A DNA stretch of 64,000 nucleotides from Phycisphaeraceae bacterium. Its GTDB lineage: Bacteria; Planctomycetota; Phycisphaerae; Phycisphaerales; Phycisphaeraceae. The DNA lies in the NCBI GenBank assembly GCA_020851465.1, contig JADZCR010000008.1, positions 62,001 through 126,000 on the forward strand, given 5' to 3'. Below are positions 10,316-52,360 of this stretch, piece by piece. The translations under genes were made by a program, and so were the position numbers. Within the stretch, counting starts at the first letter, position 1. The number at the start of each line of letters is the position of its first letter. The notes beneath the pieces were generated by a model that was not told the DNA's origin, made no database searches, and was given only the letters and a program-made list of their open reading frames with translations.

Positions 10316-10341
10316 AAGCCCGTGGTGTAAACCACAGGCTT
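10316..10341 (-). terminator. Possible terminator or leader hairpin between the PEP-CTERM gene and the giant gene
   Basis: An inverted repeat pairs AAGCC/GGCTT and GTGGT/ACCAC around a four-base loop with one internal mismatch. Read on the minus strand it is followed by only four Ts. It could end the upstream PEP-CTERM transcript or act as a leader structure for the giant gene. The short T-run keeps confidence low. Confidence 0.4.
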
Positions 10342-10457
10342 CTGACGAACTGATCATGCTCGGACGTAACAGATCACACTTCCCCTCTCCACATCCAAAA
10401 ACCCGAATTATCACGTCTAGACAATCAGTACCAACGAGACACTCGACTCCTGCGATC

Positions 10458-11150
10458 TCAAGCGCGGGAGAAAGCCCGCGCGGGACGACGTACCGCGTAG
10501 AGCCCCGCCGCAGCAAGCCCCAACAGGCTCAACATCGCAACCTGAGGTTCAGGAACGGGATTTCCGCCGCCACCCTGATTGACGCGGATGGTCTGGCCAT
10601 TGGGATAGCTCACAGGAACAGGAGGAAATGCTGCTTCACCAATCCCGCCGGTATCCGTCGAATAAAGCAGGAAGTCAAAGCCGAAGAAATCAATGGATGG
10701 TCCGACGTTGATCGTCGTGGAGCCTGCGTTCATCGCCATGAGTTGCAGGGTAAAGAGAATCTGAGGCGAGCCGATACCGCGACCGATATCGTCGTACGCA
10801 CCAGCAACACCTTCGAGTGTCTGACCCGCACCGGGGCCATTCACCAGCGAGCCGTCGCTGCCGAACGATGCGTCAGGCCTGACCACCGAACCGGGTACGA
10901 CTTGCAGAATCGACCGATCGCTGACCAGAAAGTCGGTGTCGAACGAGAAGATGCCATCCTCAACGTCCGGATTATTGACCAGAGCCTTAACCGTGGCGGT
11001 GGTCGTCTGACCGACGTTCAGGACATTGTTTTCGACTTCAATGGTGACAGTGACGCTTGGATCGCCCTGGGTCTGAGCCATCAAAGATGACCCGAGCGCC
11101 AATGACGCCACAAACGCAGCCAATAACGCTGTAACTCGCTTTGTAAACAC
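10458..11150 (-). CDS. PEP-CTERM sorting-domain protein
   Basis: This 230-residue protein starts at a GTG with an AAGGAG box upstream. It has a classic signal peptide (basic start, hydrophobic ALLAAFVASLALGSSL, then a small-residue cleavage site near AQTQ). A beta-rich domain follows, containing VTIEVENNVLNVGQTTTA and a G-rich turn region; it vaguely resembles cohesin-like folds, which is not proven. The C-terminus carries the sorting signal: VPEP, a hydrophobic helix (MLSLLGLAAAGLYAV) and a basic tail with RRPAR. PEP-CTERM proteins are exported and processed by an exosortase; no exosortase gene lies in this window. The gene is 209 bases upstream of the giant LEPR-XLL gene on the same strand and may be cotranscribed with it. 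Confidence 0.85.
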   Translation of the reverse strand: MFTKRVTALLAAFVASLALGSSLMAQTQGDPSVTVTIEVENNVLNVGQTTTATVKALVNNPDVEDGIFSFDTDFLVSDRSILQVVPGSVVRPDASFGSDGSLVNGPGAGQTLEGVAGAYDDIGRGIGSPQILFTLQLMAMNAGSTTINVGPSIDFFGFDFLLYSTDTGGIGEAAFPPVPVSYPNGQTIRVNQGGGGNPVPEPQVAMLSLLGLAAAGLYAVRRPARAFSRA

Positions 11151-11224
11151 TATTTCTCCTTCCTCAAAGATTGTGTTTAGAACGGTGGTTTTACACGAAA
11201 ATACCCTGACGATGAAGTGGTACG

Positions 11225-11253
11225 ATTATAACCCAAAATACCTAAAAAAGCAA
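11225..11253 (-). promoter_or_regulatory. Sigma-70-type promoter for the PEP-CTERM gene
   Basis: On the minus strand a TTGCTT -35 box (11253-11248) is separated by 17 bases from a perfect TATAAT -10 box (11230-11225). The predicted start of transcription lies about 70 bases before the GTG at 11150. An 11-base palindrome, GCAACAGTTGC (11250-11260), overlaps the -35 box and could be an operator. The wider 11151-11470 region is AT-rich and holds no gene I can support. Confidence 0.6.
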
Positions 11254-11470
11254 CAGTTGCGCTATAATTTTGCAGTTTTGCAGTTGAGGCCGATAACTTC
11301 GCAACAACCGATTTTAGGGGGCTAGCTCCCATTGCCGCATCAAGTCAGTGCGTCGATGGCACGATGAGGAATGCTCGTGATTGTCGATTGTGTTCGAGGG
11401 GCGAATCGTCCGATATAAACCCTCGCCACGACCTACCCTGATCTCCACCTAACCGACAGGAATCGCTCCC

Positions 11471-11845
11471 ATGTCAGAAACTCCCGCCAGCAACGATCCG
11501 CAAATCGAAAACCACGCCCGCGAACAGGTCGGCAGCCGACAGGTCCGCATGCGCATCGATGAGCGCGGCCTGACGACAACCTACGCCAACGCCTTCCGTA
11601 CCAACAGCTCTCCCGAAGAAGTCATCATTGACTTCGGGCTTAATCTCGTCACCCAGCCCGCCCAGCGCGACGGCGGCAAGGACGGGACACCCGGCGAAAT
11701 CCTCTTCCAGGTCACCAACCGCACGATCATGAACTACTACTCCGCCAAACGGCTCGCGATCACGCTGACCCAGATGATCAAGAGACACGAAGATCAGTTT
11801 GGTAACCTCGAACTCAACGCTGAGACTCGACGCAAAAAGAAGTAA
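11471..11845 (+). CDS. DUF3467 family protein
   Basis: A 124-residue cytoplasmic protein with no signal peptide or membrane segment. The core matches the DUF3467 family as I know it: TTYANAFRTNSSPEEVIIDFG near residues 37-57, a later strand giving ILFQVTNRTIMNYYSAKRL, and a final helix with LTQMIKRHEDQFG. The tail is basic (RRKKK). A weak GACAGG box precedes the ATG. The family has no established function; members occur widely in planctomycetes and other phyla. It is followed after 174 bases by a transglutaminase-like gene on the same strand, and the two may be cotranscribed. Confidence 0.8.
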   Translation: MSETPASNDPQIENHAREQVGSRQVRMRIDERGLTTTYANAFRTNSSPEEVIIDFGLNLVTQPAQRDGGKDGTPGEILFQVTNRTIMNYYSAKRLAITLTQMIKRHEDQFGNLELNAETRRKKK

Positions 11846-12019
11846 GCGCGTCGAATTACATCCCCAATCATCCGCAGCAAGGCCGACGGAACACGTCGGT
11901 CTTGTTATATGCGCAATTCGCGCGGGATTTCGGAATGAGGTCAATCTCTCATTGACGCTGCGCACCATCCGGGCGTGGTTTCTGATTACAATCTCCGTCC
12001 CCACAGACAGGAGTTTCCC

Positions 12020-12769
12020 GTGTCCACCACGACCACCGCCCGCCCCGCCGCCGCACGCCACATTGATCAGCGTTACATGCCCCGCGTGGGTGGGATCGAC
12101 CTTGAGCAGTCGCTCAACTACATCGCCGTCGCCGACGCCGGCGTGGATTTCTGCTACCGCTGCTACACCGGCAGCCGCCTGCCTTATCAAAAGGGTGCCC
12201 GGCCTGTGCTGGAAAAAATCGCAGCCGAGGTGACCGCGGGATCATCCGACCAGCGCGAAGCGGCGCTCCGGTTGAATGACTGGGTTTCCCGGAAGGTCGC
12301 CTGGGCCGGCTACCACTGGAAACACAAGGGCAAACGCCTCGCCACCGATCTGGCGTTGTCCGAGGAGAACCTCATCGAGCAGGGCTACGGCTGGTGCAAT
12401 GAGCAAGTCCGCGTGCTCTGCTGCCTCACTCAGGTGATTGATATTCCCTCACGCATCGTCTTCGCCTGCAATCGGGCAGGCAACTACGGCCACTGCGTCA
12501 CGGAAGTGCTGCTGGCGGGACAATGGTTGATGCTCGACGAGTCGTTCGGCTATGCCTTCGAGTTCAACGGCAAGCCGGTACGTGCGGTGGATGTGTTCGG
12601 CGATATCAGAATGCGCGAACACTTCCAGCCCATCTACAAAAAAATGTGCGACGACCTGATCAAGGAACTCGGCCACAGCATCCTCGACGGAGACTTCGCC
12701 ATGTCCGTCTCGCCCAATCCGCTCGATGGCTTTGAAGTGATCGGGTTCCACAATCACTTCGTTCACTGA
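12020..12769 (+). CDS. Transglutaminase-like cysteine protease-fold protein
   Basis: A 249-residue protein. I chose the GTG at 12020 because ACAGGAG lies just upstream; an in-frame ATG at 11975 has no such box. The transglutaminase-like core carries the usual Cys-His-Asp triad: C126 in GYGWCNEQ, H158 in GNYGHCV and D173 in WLMLDES. This fold includes proteases, amidases and peptide-modifying enzymes, so the substrate cannot be named. There is no signal peptide, so it probably acts in the cytoplasm. The N-terminal 90 residues, including a cysteine pair in FCYRCYTG, are not assigned. Confidence 0.75.
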   Translation: MSTTTTARPAAARHIDQRYMPRVGGIDLEQSLNYIAVADAGVDFCYRCYTGSRLPYQKGARPVLEKIAAEVTAGSSDQREAALRLNDWVSRKVAWAGYHWKHKGKRLATDLALSEENLIEQGYGWCNEQVRVLCCLTQVIDIPSRIVFACNRAGNYGHCVTEVLLAGQWLMLDESFGYAFEFNGKPVRAVDVFGDIRMREHFQPIYKKMCDDLIKELGHSILDGDFAMSVSPNPLDGFEVIGFHNHFVH

Positions 12770-12797
12770 ACGACGACTCGCTGCAGTTCCGACGAGT

Positions 12798-14027
12798 TCA
12801 CTCGACCGACACAGCCCAGACTTCGCTGTCAACTTTCTCCTCGCTGAACGGGCCGTGCGTAAAAAGAATCGTCGGTGAATGGACAGGATGAAACGGCCCT
12901 GGTCGTGAAATTGCCGGCAACCAACTTGGTGCCGCCGAATCTGTCGTGCTGATTTGCTGACACGCAAATTGACGCCCTTCGTCGGTCGATGCCAGATAAA
13001 AAACTTCCGTGGACGGATCACGCCAGGTATGCGATGACGCAGCGGTCGATGCGGCGATCACCACATGGATGCGGTCAGCGGTATCAATCGTCATGCTGCC
13101 ATCGGTCGGTACGCGATCGGCAGGAAGAAACCGGCTGAGATCAACCGTTTCCCACGCCTTTCCCGTCCAATGTGACAGCGGCAGATAGCGGTCGTTGCCC
13201 TTCTGCTTGCCTGTAAGAATCCAGGGCCGACCACGGGAGTCACAGACCAACCCCCAGTTGCGCGGATCGTCCTCCGCAGGCGGGTGAGGCACCGCAAAGC
13301 GAGATTCGTACAGGATGGGAGTATCGACTGTCGCACCCGACAGATCGGCCCAGGTCTTGCCGTCATCAACCGACTTGAGCAGCGCAACACCCAGCGAGTA
13401 CCCGCGTTGCTCGGAATAAAAATGTCCCGACACATACAACGTGCCCTGATGATCGGAAGTGATGATCGGGCCGAGGTGGGTATATCCAGGATCAATGTCC
13501 TGCGCCATCAGCGGCCGTGCGGACTCCCAAGCTTTGCCGGGGCGTTGTCTCTGGAACATCAGCGGATGCGGCTTCTCCCCGCCGCGATACACCAGACAAT
13601 CCATGCCCGAATACGTATGAAGCAGGTAGCCATACGTCGCGTTGTAACCGACGACCACTGCATTCCTGCCGATGGCGTCGAGCGAGTTGGGTTCTGTTGC
13701 CGTGCAGTGTTTGAACGTACCGCAGGGCCAGCGATCGGGGTAAATACCCCACGGACCATGCGGGCCGAACGTCAGGTGCAGTCGCTGCGCCGCATCCACG
13801 GTCAGCGACGGGTGGTTGTGATTATCCGCGCCGTCTCCGATGGAAATCGTTGGCCCCCACTGGCGCGTCGCGTGATCAAACGTCCTGCCGCGCGTTTGAG
13901 CCGGCGCATCCGTCCAGACCACATGCGTTTTGCCGGCTATCGTCACGCACTTATTTGAAAATCCATACGCGGTCGCACGGTCGGAGCCTTGCGACGAAAG
14001 CAGAAATGGTTTGCCGAGCTGCCCCAT
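12798..14027 (-). CDS. BNR-repeat (sialidase-like) propeller protein
   Basis: A 409-residue protein resembling the BNR_4 family. Diagnostic stretches are HVVWTDAP, DNHNHPSLTVD and LHLTFGPHG in the N-terminal third, an Asp-box-like SVDDGKTW, and later LASTDEGRQF. Proteins of this type are six-bladed propellers, often linked to polysaccharide breakdown; the exact activity of this one is unknown. I see no clear signal peptide from the chosen ATG, which is unexpected for a polysaccharide-acting protein. It lies 57 bases downstream of the ceramidase-like gene on the same strand and is probably in the same operon. Confidence 0.75.
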   Translation of the reverse strand: MGQLGKPFLLSSQGSDRATAYGFSNKCVTIAGKTHVVWTDAPAQTRGRTFDHATRQWGPTISIGDGADNHNHPSLTVDAAQRLHLTFGPHGPWGIYPDRWPCGTFKHCTATEPNSLDAIGRNAVVVGYNATYGYLLHTYSGMDCLVYRGGEKPHPLMFQRQRPGKAWESARPLMAQDIDPGYTHLGPIITSDHQGTLYVSGHFYSEQRGYSLGVALLKSVDDGKTWADLSGATVDTPILYESRFAVPHPPAEDDPRNWGLVCDSRGRPWILTGKQKGNDRYLPLSHWTGKAWETVDLSRFLPADRVPTDGSMTIDTADRIHVVIAASTAASSHTWRDPSTEVFYLASTDEGRQFACQQISTTDSAAPSWLPAISRPGPFHPVHSPTILFTHGPFSEEKVDSEVWAVSVE

Positions 14028-16692: not shown

Positions 16693-19600
16693 ATGCAACG
16701 ACTAGCCGAAATCTGTATTCGTCGGCCGATCTTCGCCTCGATGATTATCCTCGCGCTGGTGGTCGTGGGTGTCACCAGCTATATGCGGCTAGGTGTGGAT
16801 CGACTTCCCTCGGTGGACCTGCCCACCGTCAGCATCCGCACGACGCTTGCCGGTGCCTCTCCGGAGGAAATGGAAAGCGAAGTCACGAAGGTCATTGAGG
16901 AAGTCGTCAACACGGTCGAGGGCATTGATGAGCTGCGCTCGATCTCCGGAGCAGGCGCCTCGGTGGTGATCGCCACCTTCAAGCTCAATCGGAACATCGA
17001 CTCCGCGGCGCAGGATGTGCGTGATCGCGTGCAGACTGCCTTGCGTCGCCTGCCGGATGACGCGGACCCGCCGGTGGTGAGCAAGGTTGACAATGACTCG
17101 ACGCCGGTGCTTTCGATCGCGGTCTCAGGTGAGCGGACAATCCGGGAGCTAACCGAGATCGCTGACAAGATCGTGAAGGTTCGACTGGAGCGATCCACGG
17201 GTGTGGGTCAGATCAACCTTTCCGGCGGACTGGAACGAACAATCAACATCTGGGTCAACGCTGACAGACTGGCGGCCCACCGCCTGCCCATCACTGCGGT
17301 GCGTGATGCCATCGCCCGTGAAAATGCGGATGTTCCCGGCGGAAACGTCACCGGCAGCGACCGGGAGCAGATCCTCCGCACCACAGCCAAGCTCAAGGAT
17401 GCGGCAGCTTTTGAGCGGGTCGTGATCGCCAACATCAACGGCGCACCGCTGCGGGTCAGCGACATCGGCCGGGCGGAGGACGGCAATCGCGAACCGCGCT
17501 CCTTCGCCCGGCTCAACGGCAAGCCGGCGGTGGTGCTCGATGTCGTCCGACAGTCCGGCGCCAACACCGTCGAAGTCATCGAGGGGATCAAGGAAAAACT
17601 TCCCCAGGTACTCGACGAGGTACCACCGGGCGTCCGGGTTGAAGTCATCCGCGATCAGTCACGCTACATCTACGCAGCCCTGCATGAGATCGACACGCAC
17701 CTGATTCTCGGCAGCGTCCTGGCGTGTCTGGTCGTCCTCGCCTTCATGCGGAGCTGGCGTTCCACGATCATCGCATCCGTGGCGATCCCGGCCTCGGTCA
17801 TCTCAACCTTCGGCATGATGTGGGCGCTGGGCTTCACGCTCAATGCGGTCACCATGCTCGCGCTGGTTTTGATGGTCGGCATCGTGATCGACGATGCGAT
17901 CGTCGTGCTGGAAAATATCTATCGCTTTGTCGAGGAAAAGAAAATGAACCCGATGGACGCCGCCCGCGAGGCGACCGCTGAAATCGGGCTGGCAGTGCTC
18001 GCGACGACGCTGAGTCTGGTCGTCATCTTCGTCCCCGTTTCGTTCATGTCGAGTATTTCCGGGCGGTTTCTCTACCAATTCGGCATCACGGCGGCGGTCG
18101 CGGTCCTGGTCAGCCTGCTCGTGTCGTTCACACTCACGCCGATGATGAGCGCGCGGCTGCTGCGAACGAATGATTCCAGCCACGGCGGTCACGCAGCCGC
18201 GGAAGCGAAGTCACGCGGCGGGTTTTACGGCGTCATCGACCGCGGCTACACCGCGTTGCTCAAACTCGCCATGCGCTTTCGCATTCCCGTCGCCTTTGTC
18301 GGCCTGCTCGTGATCCTTTCGGCAATCCCCCTCTACCGCGCGGTCCGACAGGAGTACACGCCTAGCGACGTGGATGAGGCGGAGTTCAGCCTCAACGTCA
18401 CCGCCCGTGAGGGTACGAGTCTTTCAGCCATGGACGGCGCGATGAAAGCCATTGAGGACGACGTGCGTCAGATCGTCGTCAACGGCCAAAAGCCCGTGCA
18501 GGTCATGCTCACGACCATCGGCGGCGGATTTCTCGGACAGGTCAATCAGGGCAGCGCGTATATCCGCATCGCTCCGCATGAACAACGGATTTTCTCGCTC
18601 GGTCGGTTGTGGCGGGAACTGATCCACGGCAGACCACGCCAGGCCTTTGCTGGGAATTACTCGCAACGCGATGTGATGCTGGCGATCCGTAAAAAGCTGG
18701 CACAATACTCCGACCTGCGCACCTCGGTGCGGAACTATCCCTCTTTCAACATCGGCGGCGGAAACTTCGACATCGACTTCGCCATCCGCGGACCCGAATT
18801 GTCCGTGCTGGCGGCCAAGGCGGAAGAGCTGCGCATCAAATCCAAAGACCTCGGCGGAATCGTCGATGCCGACACCACGCTCAAACTCGACAAGCCCGAA
18901 CTCCACGTGGAACTCGACCGCGAACGGGCCGCTGACCTGCACATCAACGCCCGCGACCTGGGAGCCACGCTGCGATTGATGGTCGGCGGTGCGGAGGAGA
19001 TTTCACGCTTCCGTGATGAATCACTCAACGAAGATTACGACGTGCAACTGCGCCTCAGCGAGGACTTCCGCAACAAGGCGTCGTCCCTGTCGCAGTTGTA
19101 CGTGCCGCGAAACGACGGCGGCGTGATCGAACTTGCCAATGTCGCCTCCATCCGTGACACCGGAAGCGCTTCGCGCATCGACCGCCTCGACCGTCAGCGC
19201 GTCGTCAATCTCCGTGCCTCGATCGGGCCGGGCTACGCACTGGCGGATCGTCTCGAGGCGTTGCGCCACGCTTCGACCGAACTGGGCCTGCCGCAGGGTT
19301 ACACCACGGTGGTCGTCGGTCGCGGCCGCGAACTGGAACGGACCTTCACCGAATTTCTCTGGGCGTTTCTCCTTTCGATCATCTTCATGTACATGATCCT
19401 GGCGGCACAATATGAGAGCCTCATCCATCCGCTGACGATCCTGCTCTCGCTGCCGCTGTCGGTGCCTTTCGCTCTGCTGTCGCTCTACCTGACCGGCGGC
19501 ACGCTCAATCTCTACTCGGCCCTGGGCATCCTGGTGCTTTTCGGCGTCGTGAAAAAGAACTCGATCCTTCAGATCGATCACATGAACAAACTCCGCGCTG

Positions 19601-49937: not shown

Positions 49938-50348
49938 TCCGACGAGTTATCGGAAATGGCTGACCCGTGTTATTGAGGCCAAAAGCGATGAATGACGCAT
50001 AAGTGGTGCATTATACGACTAGAATTTGGTCGCATTTTGATACGAAAGTTTTATCGTAACACATTGTGTAAATAGGGTTTACGACAACACTCACCCGCAG
50101 AATAAGCCATATTTTTGCAAATATTTGTAATTTCAATTCTTATATCGATGAAAATCGCAGTTGGTTATGAAATAAGCCTGTCTTTTGTCGCGTCGTAAGA
50201 CATTTTTTATTTCTCGAAATATTTTTGAACTCTAGTTGTGGCCATGACTTACCGATCTCTTTTCGGACGCGCCTTCGGCCTGGCACGGGCCATGCTTTTA
50301 CACATGCGTCCTCACGGAGAGGTGAGAGACAAACTTAGGAGAGTTGTC
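49938..50348. promoter_or_regulatory. AT-rich control region upstream of the receiver/PEP-CTERM gene
   Basis: This stretch is visibly much richer in A and T than its surroundings and holds no supported gene. It carries several short inverted repeats: TACGA/TCGTA at 50041-50058, GTAAA/TTTAC at 50068-50082, and TGTCTT/AAGACA at 50179-50202 followed by a six-T run, which could be an attenuator or terminator. I could not identify a promoter with both boxes at the right spacing. It separates the SprT-like gene from the fusion gene. Confidence 0.45.
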
Positions 50349-51857
50349 ATGGCTATCGCGACCCAAACAGATGTGATGATGGTGGCTCCTGGCGAAATGA
50401 TCAGCGAAGGGCTGACTGACGCGGCCGAGCGTAATAGCTGGCCTCTGGTCAGCGGCGCGGCGATCAAGACGCTGCTGCGCGAGGTCGTGACCCGCGGCCC
50501 GAAGGTCGTCGTTGTTCAACTCAGCAATGCGCTGATTGAGCAGACGATGTCTCTCATCGAATCTCTCCGCGTGCTCCGCCCGGGCATCCGTATCGTGGCG
50601 GCAGCGACTCACCACCACGAAATCATCGAGCAGGTCAGCCGATGTGCCGGCGTCACGATGTACTTGCCGCACGCGGCTGACGTCAGCCGTCTTGAGGAGG
50701 CGATCTACTCCCTCGCCACCACGCCCGCCATCGAACCTGGCATTACCGATTCCGAACGCTCGACCGCAACCAGCCGTCGCAGCTCCCGTCTGCAAACGGG
50801 AATTTCCCGCCTGGGTATGGCTGGCATGATCTTCATGGCTTTCATGCTCTCGCTGATGGTCGGCACCAATAACAAAGCCAACGCCGCGGCCATCGTGCTC
50901 AGCGATAAGGCGTCCAAGGCCTACTTCAATCTCGACGGCACCGCGATGACGCCGAGTGACTACCAGCCCAGCGTTGCCGCACCCATCGGGCTCTACGACC
51001 TCCAGCGCTCGCAGTACATTCTCGGCCAGCCGGTTTCGCCTCCGCTCCATGACGTGAATCAACAGTGGTTCTGGTATCGCGTCGGCAACGGCCCGGAACG
51101 TCAGGTCAATGACGCCAATCTGACCCGCGTCTCCACCTTCGCCTACGACACCAACCCCAGCGTTGATACCGCCAACGATCGGCTCGAAATTACCTACCAG
51201 GAAAACGGGGCTAACCCGCGATTCCAGATCATGATTCAGTACGATCTCATCGGCGGCCCGCAGTACTCACACACCGTCGGCGTCAGCAGAACGATCTCCG
51301 TCATCAGCTTGACGGGATCAAACCTGAACTTCCACATTTTCGACTACTCGGACCTGACCCTCGGTTATGCCTACAACAATGCTGAGGAAAACAACATCCA
51401 CCCCGACCTGGGGCAATTCCTCAACTCCGACGGCTCAACGGTCAGGCAGTGGGATAACGACGGTGACTTCAACCCTGCTCTGGATCCCCCTAACGGAAAC
51501 TACGAGTCGTATGCACGACGTGACTCGGATTCACAGACCACGACTCTGACCGACCCGGACCACTTCTCCATCTCGAAGAACGCCGGTGCGGGCAACATTC
51601 TGTCGAGCTTGAACAACGGCTCCGCTACGACTCTCTCTGACAACATGACGACCAATGGCGGGCTGCCTGCGAACCTGGCCTTCGCTTTCCAGTACGACTT
51701 CATCCTCGGTCCCGGCCAAGGCTGGATCGGCGGAGCCAACCTGCTGATCGTCCCTGAACCCTCCAGCTTCGCGGTCATGGCAGGAACAACCATCGCCCTG
51801 GCACTCATACGACCTAACCGAAAGCGATACAAGCAACAGCACTTTGCTGCAGCCTGA
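50349..51857 (+). CDS. Receiver-like/PEP-CTERM transmembrane fusion protein
   Basis: A 502-residue protein. The ATG at 50349 is favoured by AGGAG seven bases upstream; in-frame starts from 50238 exist. Residues 7-122 read as a CheY-like receiver fold (TDVMMVAPGEMI, PKVVVVQLSNALIE, RIVAAATHHHEIIEQVSRCAG, MYLPHAADVSRLEEAI), but the phosphoacceptor position is Q57 instead of Asp and the usual lysine is missing. A basic Ser/Arg linker leads to one hydrophobic helix (about 156-172, MAGMIFMAFMLSLMVG) with a cleavage-like NKANAAA. The rest is a beta-rich exported domain ending in VPEPSS, a helix and a basic tail, a PEP-CTERM signal. The chain would thus span the membrane with a pseudo-receiver inside. 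If the helix is cut as a signal peptide, the two halves would separate. Confidence 0.75.
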   Translation: MAIATQTDVMMVAPGEMISEGLTDAAERNSWPLVSGAAIKTLLREVVTRGPKVVVVQLSNALIEQTMSLIESLRVLRPGIRIVAAATHHHEIIEQVSRCAGVTMYLPHAADVSRLEEAIYSLATTPAIEPGITDSERSTATSRRSSRLQTGISRLGMAGMIFMAFMLSLMVGTNNKANAAAIVLSDKASKAYFNLDGTAMTPSDYQPSVAAPIGLYDLQRSQYILGQPVSPPLHDVNQQWFWYRVGNGPERQVNDANLTRVSTFAYDTNPSVDTANDRLEITYQENGANPRFQIMIQYDLIGGPQYSHTVGVSRTISVISLTGSNLNFHIFDYSDLTLGYAYNNAEENNIHPDLGQFLNSDGSTVRQWDNDGDFNPALDPPNGNYESYARRDSDSQTTTLTDPDHFSISKNAGAGNILSSLNNGSATTLSDNMTTNGGLPANLAFAFQYDFILGPGQGWIGGANLLIVPEPSSFAVMAGTTIALALIRPNRKRYKQQHFAAA

Positions 51858-52153: not shown

Positions 52154-52360
52154 ATGACCACCCTCTCAAACACAACTCACCTGACCTCCTACCGCAGCAT
52201 TGATGTGATCACCGCGGATCGCTCGCAGACCCGCCGCCATAAGCAGACCCTTGCCATCCTCGCATCCTCCACCGAGCCTACCTGGGTGAAGCTGCTCGCC
52301 GTGCTGGGATTCAATCCGGTTCGTCAGCGTGCTTTGCGCCGTCTGTCTGCTCGTGGATGA
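52154..52360 (+). CDS. Small basic hypothetical protein
   Basis: A 68-residue frame with codon use like its neighbours (mostly G or C in third positions). The leader CAGGACTCACACCC resembles those of other genes here, although the spacing is long. The product is basic, with a hydrophobic patch TWVKLLAVLGFNPVRQRALRRL that may be an amphipathic helix. It matches no family that I know. The 138 bases that follow, up to the PilZ gene, show nothing of note. Confidence 0.4.
   Translation: MTTLSNTTHLTSYRSIDVITADRSQTRRHKQTLAILASSTEPTWVKLLAVLGFNPVRQRALRRLSARG

Follow-up and report, generated by a model that had tools for sequence, protein, structure and literature searches.

Organization of the fused gene

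The window (the whole 64-kb stretch of DNA that was analyzed) carries a gene whose single uninterrupted frame encodes a degenerate receiver, then an internal helix resembling a signal peptide, and last a beta domain of the PEP-CTERM type (Table 1). This organization had been proposed by the sequence-only reading and stood up to analysis, since the frame is open, the folds were predicted, and homologues were found.

Table 1. Features of the fused gene and its upstream region (window coordinates), and a small protein of related loci (locus coordinates)
Feature	Position	Strand	Evidence or remarks
Five TACGA/TCGTA copies, candidate activator-binding repeats	50014..50197		5 versus 0.6 expected, p 0.0006; weak, the motif having been picked after inspection of the sequence
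Sigma-54 promoter (-24/-12), TGGCACGGGCCATGCT	50281..50296	+	17.1 bits; 68 nt before the start codon
Shine-Dalgarno sequence, AGGAGAG	50337..50343	+	Sequence; precedes the ATG at 50349
Fused gene	50349..51857	+	Open frame, 502 aa plus stop
Pseudo-receiver domain, residues 8-125	50370..50723	+	Homologues, alignment, predicted fold, Foldseek, PDB profile search
Q57, phosphoacceptor position	50517..50519	+	Q in 16/21 aligned members; E, H, G, or N in the remainder
Linker, residues 126-156	50724..50816	+	Sequence; Ser/Thr/Arg-rich, n-region of the internal signal peptide
Signal-peptide-like internal helix (residues 157-179) with ANA-A cleavage site	50817..50885	+	Hydrophobicity peak; same alignment position as the signal peptides of homologous standalone proteins
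Secreted beta domain, residues 180-468	50886..51752	+	pLDDT 83.5; homologues in 51/397 class-sample genomes
PEP-CTERM sorting region, residues 469-493	51753..51827	+	VPEPSS, hydrophobic helix, basic cluster
Small conserved protein (~65 aa), motif SGEqLLLLAIFG	L016 10071-10259; L017 10154-10348; L019 3270-3482; L170 8003-8308; L171 7538-7744; L178 7382-7573

A GTG codon at position 50238 was rejected as the start because the sigma-54 site lies downstream of it. Initiation at the internal ATG codons of residues 157 and 160 is unlikely, since neither is accompanied by a Shine-Dalgarno sequence or a charged n-region, and this lack of start signals favors the production of a single chain. The most hydrophobic segment of the predicted protein comprises residues 157 to 171, followed by the C-terminal helix located after the PEP motif. 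Downstream of the fused gene, an open reading frame at positions 52154 to 52360 encodes a basic polypeptide of 68 residues.

The N-terminal half is a pseudo-receiver

For residues 1 to 134, AlphaFold2 with 21 related sequences predicted a (beta-alpha)5 fold like that of receivers (mean pLDDT of 89.1), in agreement with the fold initially assigned to residues 1 to 130. The best Foldseek matches in the PDB were the CheY-like domain of TadZ (4lda), which ranked first with a TM score of 0.69 on the query, and KdpE receivers. Comparison of the family profile with the PDB retrieved 87 sequences at an E value of ≤0.01, and nearly all of the 60 listed were response regulators. In TadZ, this domain is followed by an ATPase that serves pilus assembly, whereas the window protein has no such continuation. 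The window domain itself matched no Pfam family at an E value of ≤0.01; three other pseudo-receivers matched the Pfam VpsR domain.

The absence of the phosphoacceptor, already noticed from the presence of Gln at position 57, extends to the rest of the catalytic site, the columns of the acidic pair, Thr, and Lys being likewise degenerate in the alignment. In one subgroup (L019, L174, L175, and L178), the phosphoacceptor Asp is retained and the acidic pair is missing. The most conserved positions, E94, G101, and Y105, are located on the alpha4-beta5 side, and the window domain has kept these residues together with the family-conserved R98. With a (beta-alpha)5 fold and neither the phosphoacceptor Asp nor the other catalytic residues, the domain qualifies as a pseudo-receiver. 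Its relatives are conserved standalone proteins of ~125 to 195 residues. Phylogenetic analysis separated these standalone members and the window domain from ordinary receivers with a support of 0.97, the exact place of the window domain among the standalone members being poorly supported.

The C-terminal half is a PEP-CTERM surface protein

The C-terminal half consists of a predicted beta domain preceded by a signal peptide and followed by a PEP-CTERM region, as structure prediction confirmed for the beta domain. The sorting region displays the expected anatomy, with VPEPSS, a helix, and the basic sequence RPNRKRYK, and aligned with other PEP-CTERM proteins. The assignment was made by homology and anatomy, the PF07589 scores (10.9 and 16.3 bits) being under the curated cutoff of 20.7 bits. 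The signal peptide is located internally (residues 157 to 179) and not at the N terminus as is usual for PEP-CTERM proteins. In alignments it takes the place of the signal peptides that homologous standalone proteins carry, in agreement with the proposal that the internal helix is a delayed signal peptide, and the ANA-A signal peptidase site is retained. Foldseek matched the beta domain to beta sandwiches of sugar phosphorylases and YidC with TM scores of ~0.5 or below, from which no function was concluded.

The fusion is probably derived and was found in a single genome

The sequence-only reading knew of no described family with this joining of a receiver to a surface protein and proposed looking for the same fusion in other Phycisphaerae. 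The samples examined did not support such a family. The 37 further frames related to the C-terminal half were all standalone (236 to 341 residues), none being preceded by a receiver, and all homologues of the N-terminal half were also standalone, an outcome that the sequence-only reading had itself named as refuting its proposal. Searches with profiles of the N-terminal half revealed no other fusion of the pseudo-receiver family to a secreted domain in overlapping samples of the class (397 genomes), family (51), order (400), and phylum (392), long frames among the weak matches not having been viewed singly. In one relative (G024), the two halves are encoded by separate adjacent genes ~300 nt apart. 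Since each half is standalone elsewhere and the corresponding genes are neighbors in that relative, the window gene is most likely, as judged from these comparisons, a derived in-frame fusion of neighboring genes.

The independent homologues of each half and the similar GC content at third codon positions (0.77 and 0.76) speak against a chance overlap of frames as the origin of the join. A chance or artifactual frame is thus ruled out for the halves and not fully for the junction, as the fusion was seen in a single genome without a congener. We considered in particular that the genome contains two genes and that the assembly dropped a stretch holding the stop codon of the first and the start of the second. 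The existence of one assembly only, in 20 contigs, and the separate genes of G024 are compatible with such a loss, but the frame is unchanged at the junction, the other frames offer no start or stop that would rebuild two genes, and codon composition is similar on either side, making this explanation highly improbable.

A second explanation is that the fusion is real and neutral, a deletion having removed the stop and start signals between cotranscribed genes, with the internal helix still functioning as a signal peptide, the C-terminal half exported as before, and the pseudo-receiver carried as a passenger that gained no role. The restriction of the fusion to one genome among the samples and the adjacency of the genes in G024 are in favor of this possibility. 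However, the confidence of the predicted receiver fold is high, E94, R98, G101, and Y105 are kept, and nothing disrupts the frame, the ribosome-binding site, or the promoter. We regard a neutral fusion as somewhat unlikely.

A sigma-54 promoter precedes the fused gene

The predicted sigma-54 promoter TGGCACGGGCCATGCT is the only site scoring at least 13.5 bits on either strand of the window, with a matrix whose weights approximated the published consensus. The pattern was not enriched genome wide (11 sites versus 10 for the reversed control), so the argument for sigma-54 relies on the position of the site and on the homologues. Sites of at least 12.5 bits preceded 20 of the 34 pseudo-receiver starts versus 0.93% of 964 control starts. 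Upstream of the promoter, a palindrome, GTACC-N5-GGTAC, was detected with up to two mismatches in 15 of 32 pseudo-receiver upstream sequences versus 4.7% of 361 controls, and its exact form was present in 6 of the 32 sequences and in none of the 361 controls. This palindrome is absent before the window gene. Elsewhere, a strong sigma-54 site (TGGCACACGTTTTGCA; 19.2 bits) is located at positions 17182 to 17197 of L112, ~100 nt upstream of another PEP-CTERM gene of the host.

The unfused module in relatives

Standalone pseudo-receivers were collected with their flanks from 34 loci. A receiver-less sigma-54 activator, composed of an AAA+ domain and a Fis-type helix-turn-helix, was encoded on the same strand within 2.5 kb upstream in 23 of these loci (22 identified by script and L179 by eye), versus none of nine receivers, ordinary or distant, that lay in the same stretches; these counts are not independent, since several of the positive loci come from one genus. 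The upstream activator was not found in the remaining 11 loci. PEP-CTERM genes lie downstream of the pseudo-receiver in many loci and large secreted proteins are encoded there in others, including L063 and L066, which have the activator and whose secreted proteins gave no PEP-CTERM match in the scan. In several genomes, the pseudo-receiver gene lies between the promoter and the PEP-CTERM genes. Together, these comparisons of predicted genes and sites show a module comprising an activator, a sigma-54 promoter, a pseudo-receiver, and PEP-CTERM genes. A pseudo-receiver switch for surface proteins is apparently undescribed, a literature search, largely among papers outside subscription, having returned no description of such a module.

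Several genomes encode a conserved protein of ~65 residues after the pseudo-receiver (Table 1); the one examined had no NCBIfam match, and the 68-residue open reading frame of the window had no match to this protein in an HMM search at an E value of ≤10. In L015 (positions 10318 to 13417; genome G004), three related genes downstream of the pseudo-receiver resemble, by eye only, N-acyl amino acid synthase/exosortase-associated acyltransferases.

The module resembles PrsK/PrsR, which regulate PEP-CTERM genes in Proteobacteria with a sigma-54 motif ahead of these genes (Haft et al. 2006, PMC1569441; TIGR02915). Both combine a sigma-54 promoter with a Fis-type AAA+ activator for PEP-CTERM genes, and a sigma-54 site precedes the PEP-CTERM gene at position 50281 and in the homologous loci. 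The mean distance between the motif and the start codon was 71 nt in the PrsK/PrsR study (PMC1569441) versus 52 nt here. The activators described here resemble PrsR from residue ~142 onward. Unlike PrsR, they have no receiver, and a degenerate receiver is encoded separately or, in the window, within the surface protein. Transcription of a PEP-CTERM gene by RpoN has been demonstrated experimentally for pepA of Aquincola, in a report whose abstract mentions no pseudo-receiver (PMC9850573).

Candidate partner activator in the host

The genome of the planctomycete host encodes RpoN, two exosortases (PF09721, over the cutoff), and about 38 PEP-CTERM matches over the cutoff. No activator gene was found near the fused gene; the three receiver-less activators of the host are all encoded on contigs other than that of the window. 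One of these contigs (C1) carries an unfused module, with an activator, a degenerate receiver of 153 residues, and a PEP-CTERM gene in that order. Among NCBIfam models, TIGR02915 (PrsR) best matched the activator of a second contig (C2), but the alignment began only at position 142 and scored 326.7 bits, below the cutoff of 502.6 bits for an activator with receiver, AAA+, and helix-turn-helix domains. The C2 activator gene comes after carA and a PEP-CTERM gene. The same carA and PEP-CTERM gene pair is followed in genome G021 by a C-type gene and speA, and in genome G026 an activator, a pseudo-receiver, and a PEP-CTERM gene adjoin speA. These neighborhoods in the three genomes suggest that the fused gene may have the C2 activator as its partner.

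Genes for pseudo-receivers, receiver-less activators, and PEP-CTERM proteins recurred beside carA and speA in L109 (3121 to 6736), L020 (1400 to 7337), and L018 (5959 to 11352), which belong to different genomes. This recurrence would fit the breakup of a single ancestral locus.

Proposed mechanism

In the unfused module, the receiver-less PrsR-like activator would act on the sigma-54 promoter of the pseudo-receiver gene and of the PEP-CTERM genes downstream. On the most economical view, the activators would have lost their own receiver, and the first gene of the operon under their control would provide a degenerate receiver in trans. The pseudo-receiver would most likely be the detached regulatory domain of the activator, exerting a phosphorylation-independent feedback much as PspA does on PspF. 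The activator PspF has no regulatory domain itself, and PspA, a product of its sigma-54 operon, acts on it in trans (PMC3128695, PMC6003685). The likeness lies in the activator architecture and in the feedback by an operon product, which would apply here by analogy, whereas PspA is a coiled coil and not a receiver fold. Pseudo-receivers of the PsR/ALR type, including the VpsR domain, have the same (beta-alpha)5 fold without phosphotransfer residues (PMC12632262, PMC4395418), the difference being that the domain is detached from the activator in the present case.

In the fused form, one chain would be made, with the pseudo-receiver as the cytoplasmic N terminus of an export substrate. The internal signal peptide would take the C-terminal half across the membrane for processing by signal peptidase and exosortase. 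The pseudo-receiver would stay in the cytoplasm or be tethered at the membrane, at a 1:1 ratio to the exported protein. We infer the contact with the activator and its sign, along with the processing and the link to export. The connection between a cytoplasmic signal and a surface protein that the sequence-only reading suggested would thereby gain a concrete setting, in the sigma-54 promoter and in the receiver-less activator beside standalone pseudo-receivers. We give an even chance to the proposal that the fused gene joins two genes of a PEP-CTERM regulatory module and that its pseudo-receiver feeds back on a receiver-less activator in trans. A more specific proposal is an export-coupled feedback device, in which each surface protein carries its own regulatory domain for the activator and export, by bringing one such domain to the membrane, would be reported directly by transcription; we view this as unlikely.

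The pseudo-receiver might alternatively make no contact with the activator and be a product of the regulon that aids the export or placing of PEP-CTERM proteins, as a cytoplasmic escort or a polar landmark, the fusion tying the escort to its cargo. The closest solved structure, the CheY-like domain of TadZ, provides a precedent for a receiver-like domain acting as a landmark for pili, and both the gene order between promoter and PEP-CTERM genes and the fusion to a cargo would fit. In contrast, a receiver-less activator adjoins in most loci, including L063 and L066, in which the scan gave no PEP-CTERM match for the large secreted proteins, and three members resemble the regulatory domain of VpsR. 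On balance, an escort function appears decidedly improbable. VpsR is an activator-type protein carrying a domain of the pseudo-receiver type, so the VpsR matches point the same way as the proposed feedback in trans.

A 2025 review described the switching of bacterial pseudo-receivers as a mystery (PMC12632262). A pseudo-receiver that consistently neighbors a receiver-less sigma-54 activator, together with a defined promoter and palindrome, would offer a clear test system for a detached receiver that cannot be phosphorylated. The regulation of PEP-CTERM genes, known as PrsK/PrsR in Proteobacteria, would extend to planctomycetes in a different form, and the fusion provides a testable link between export and transcription.
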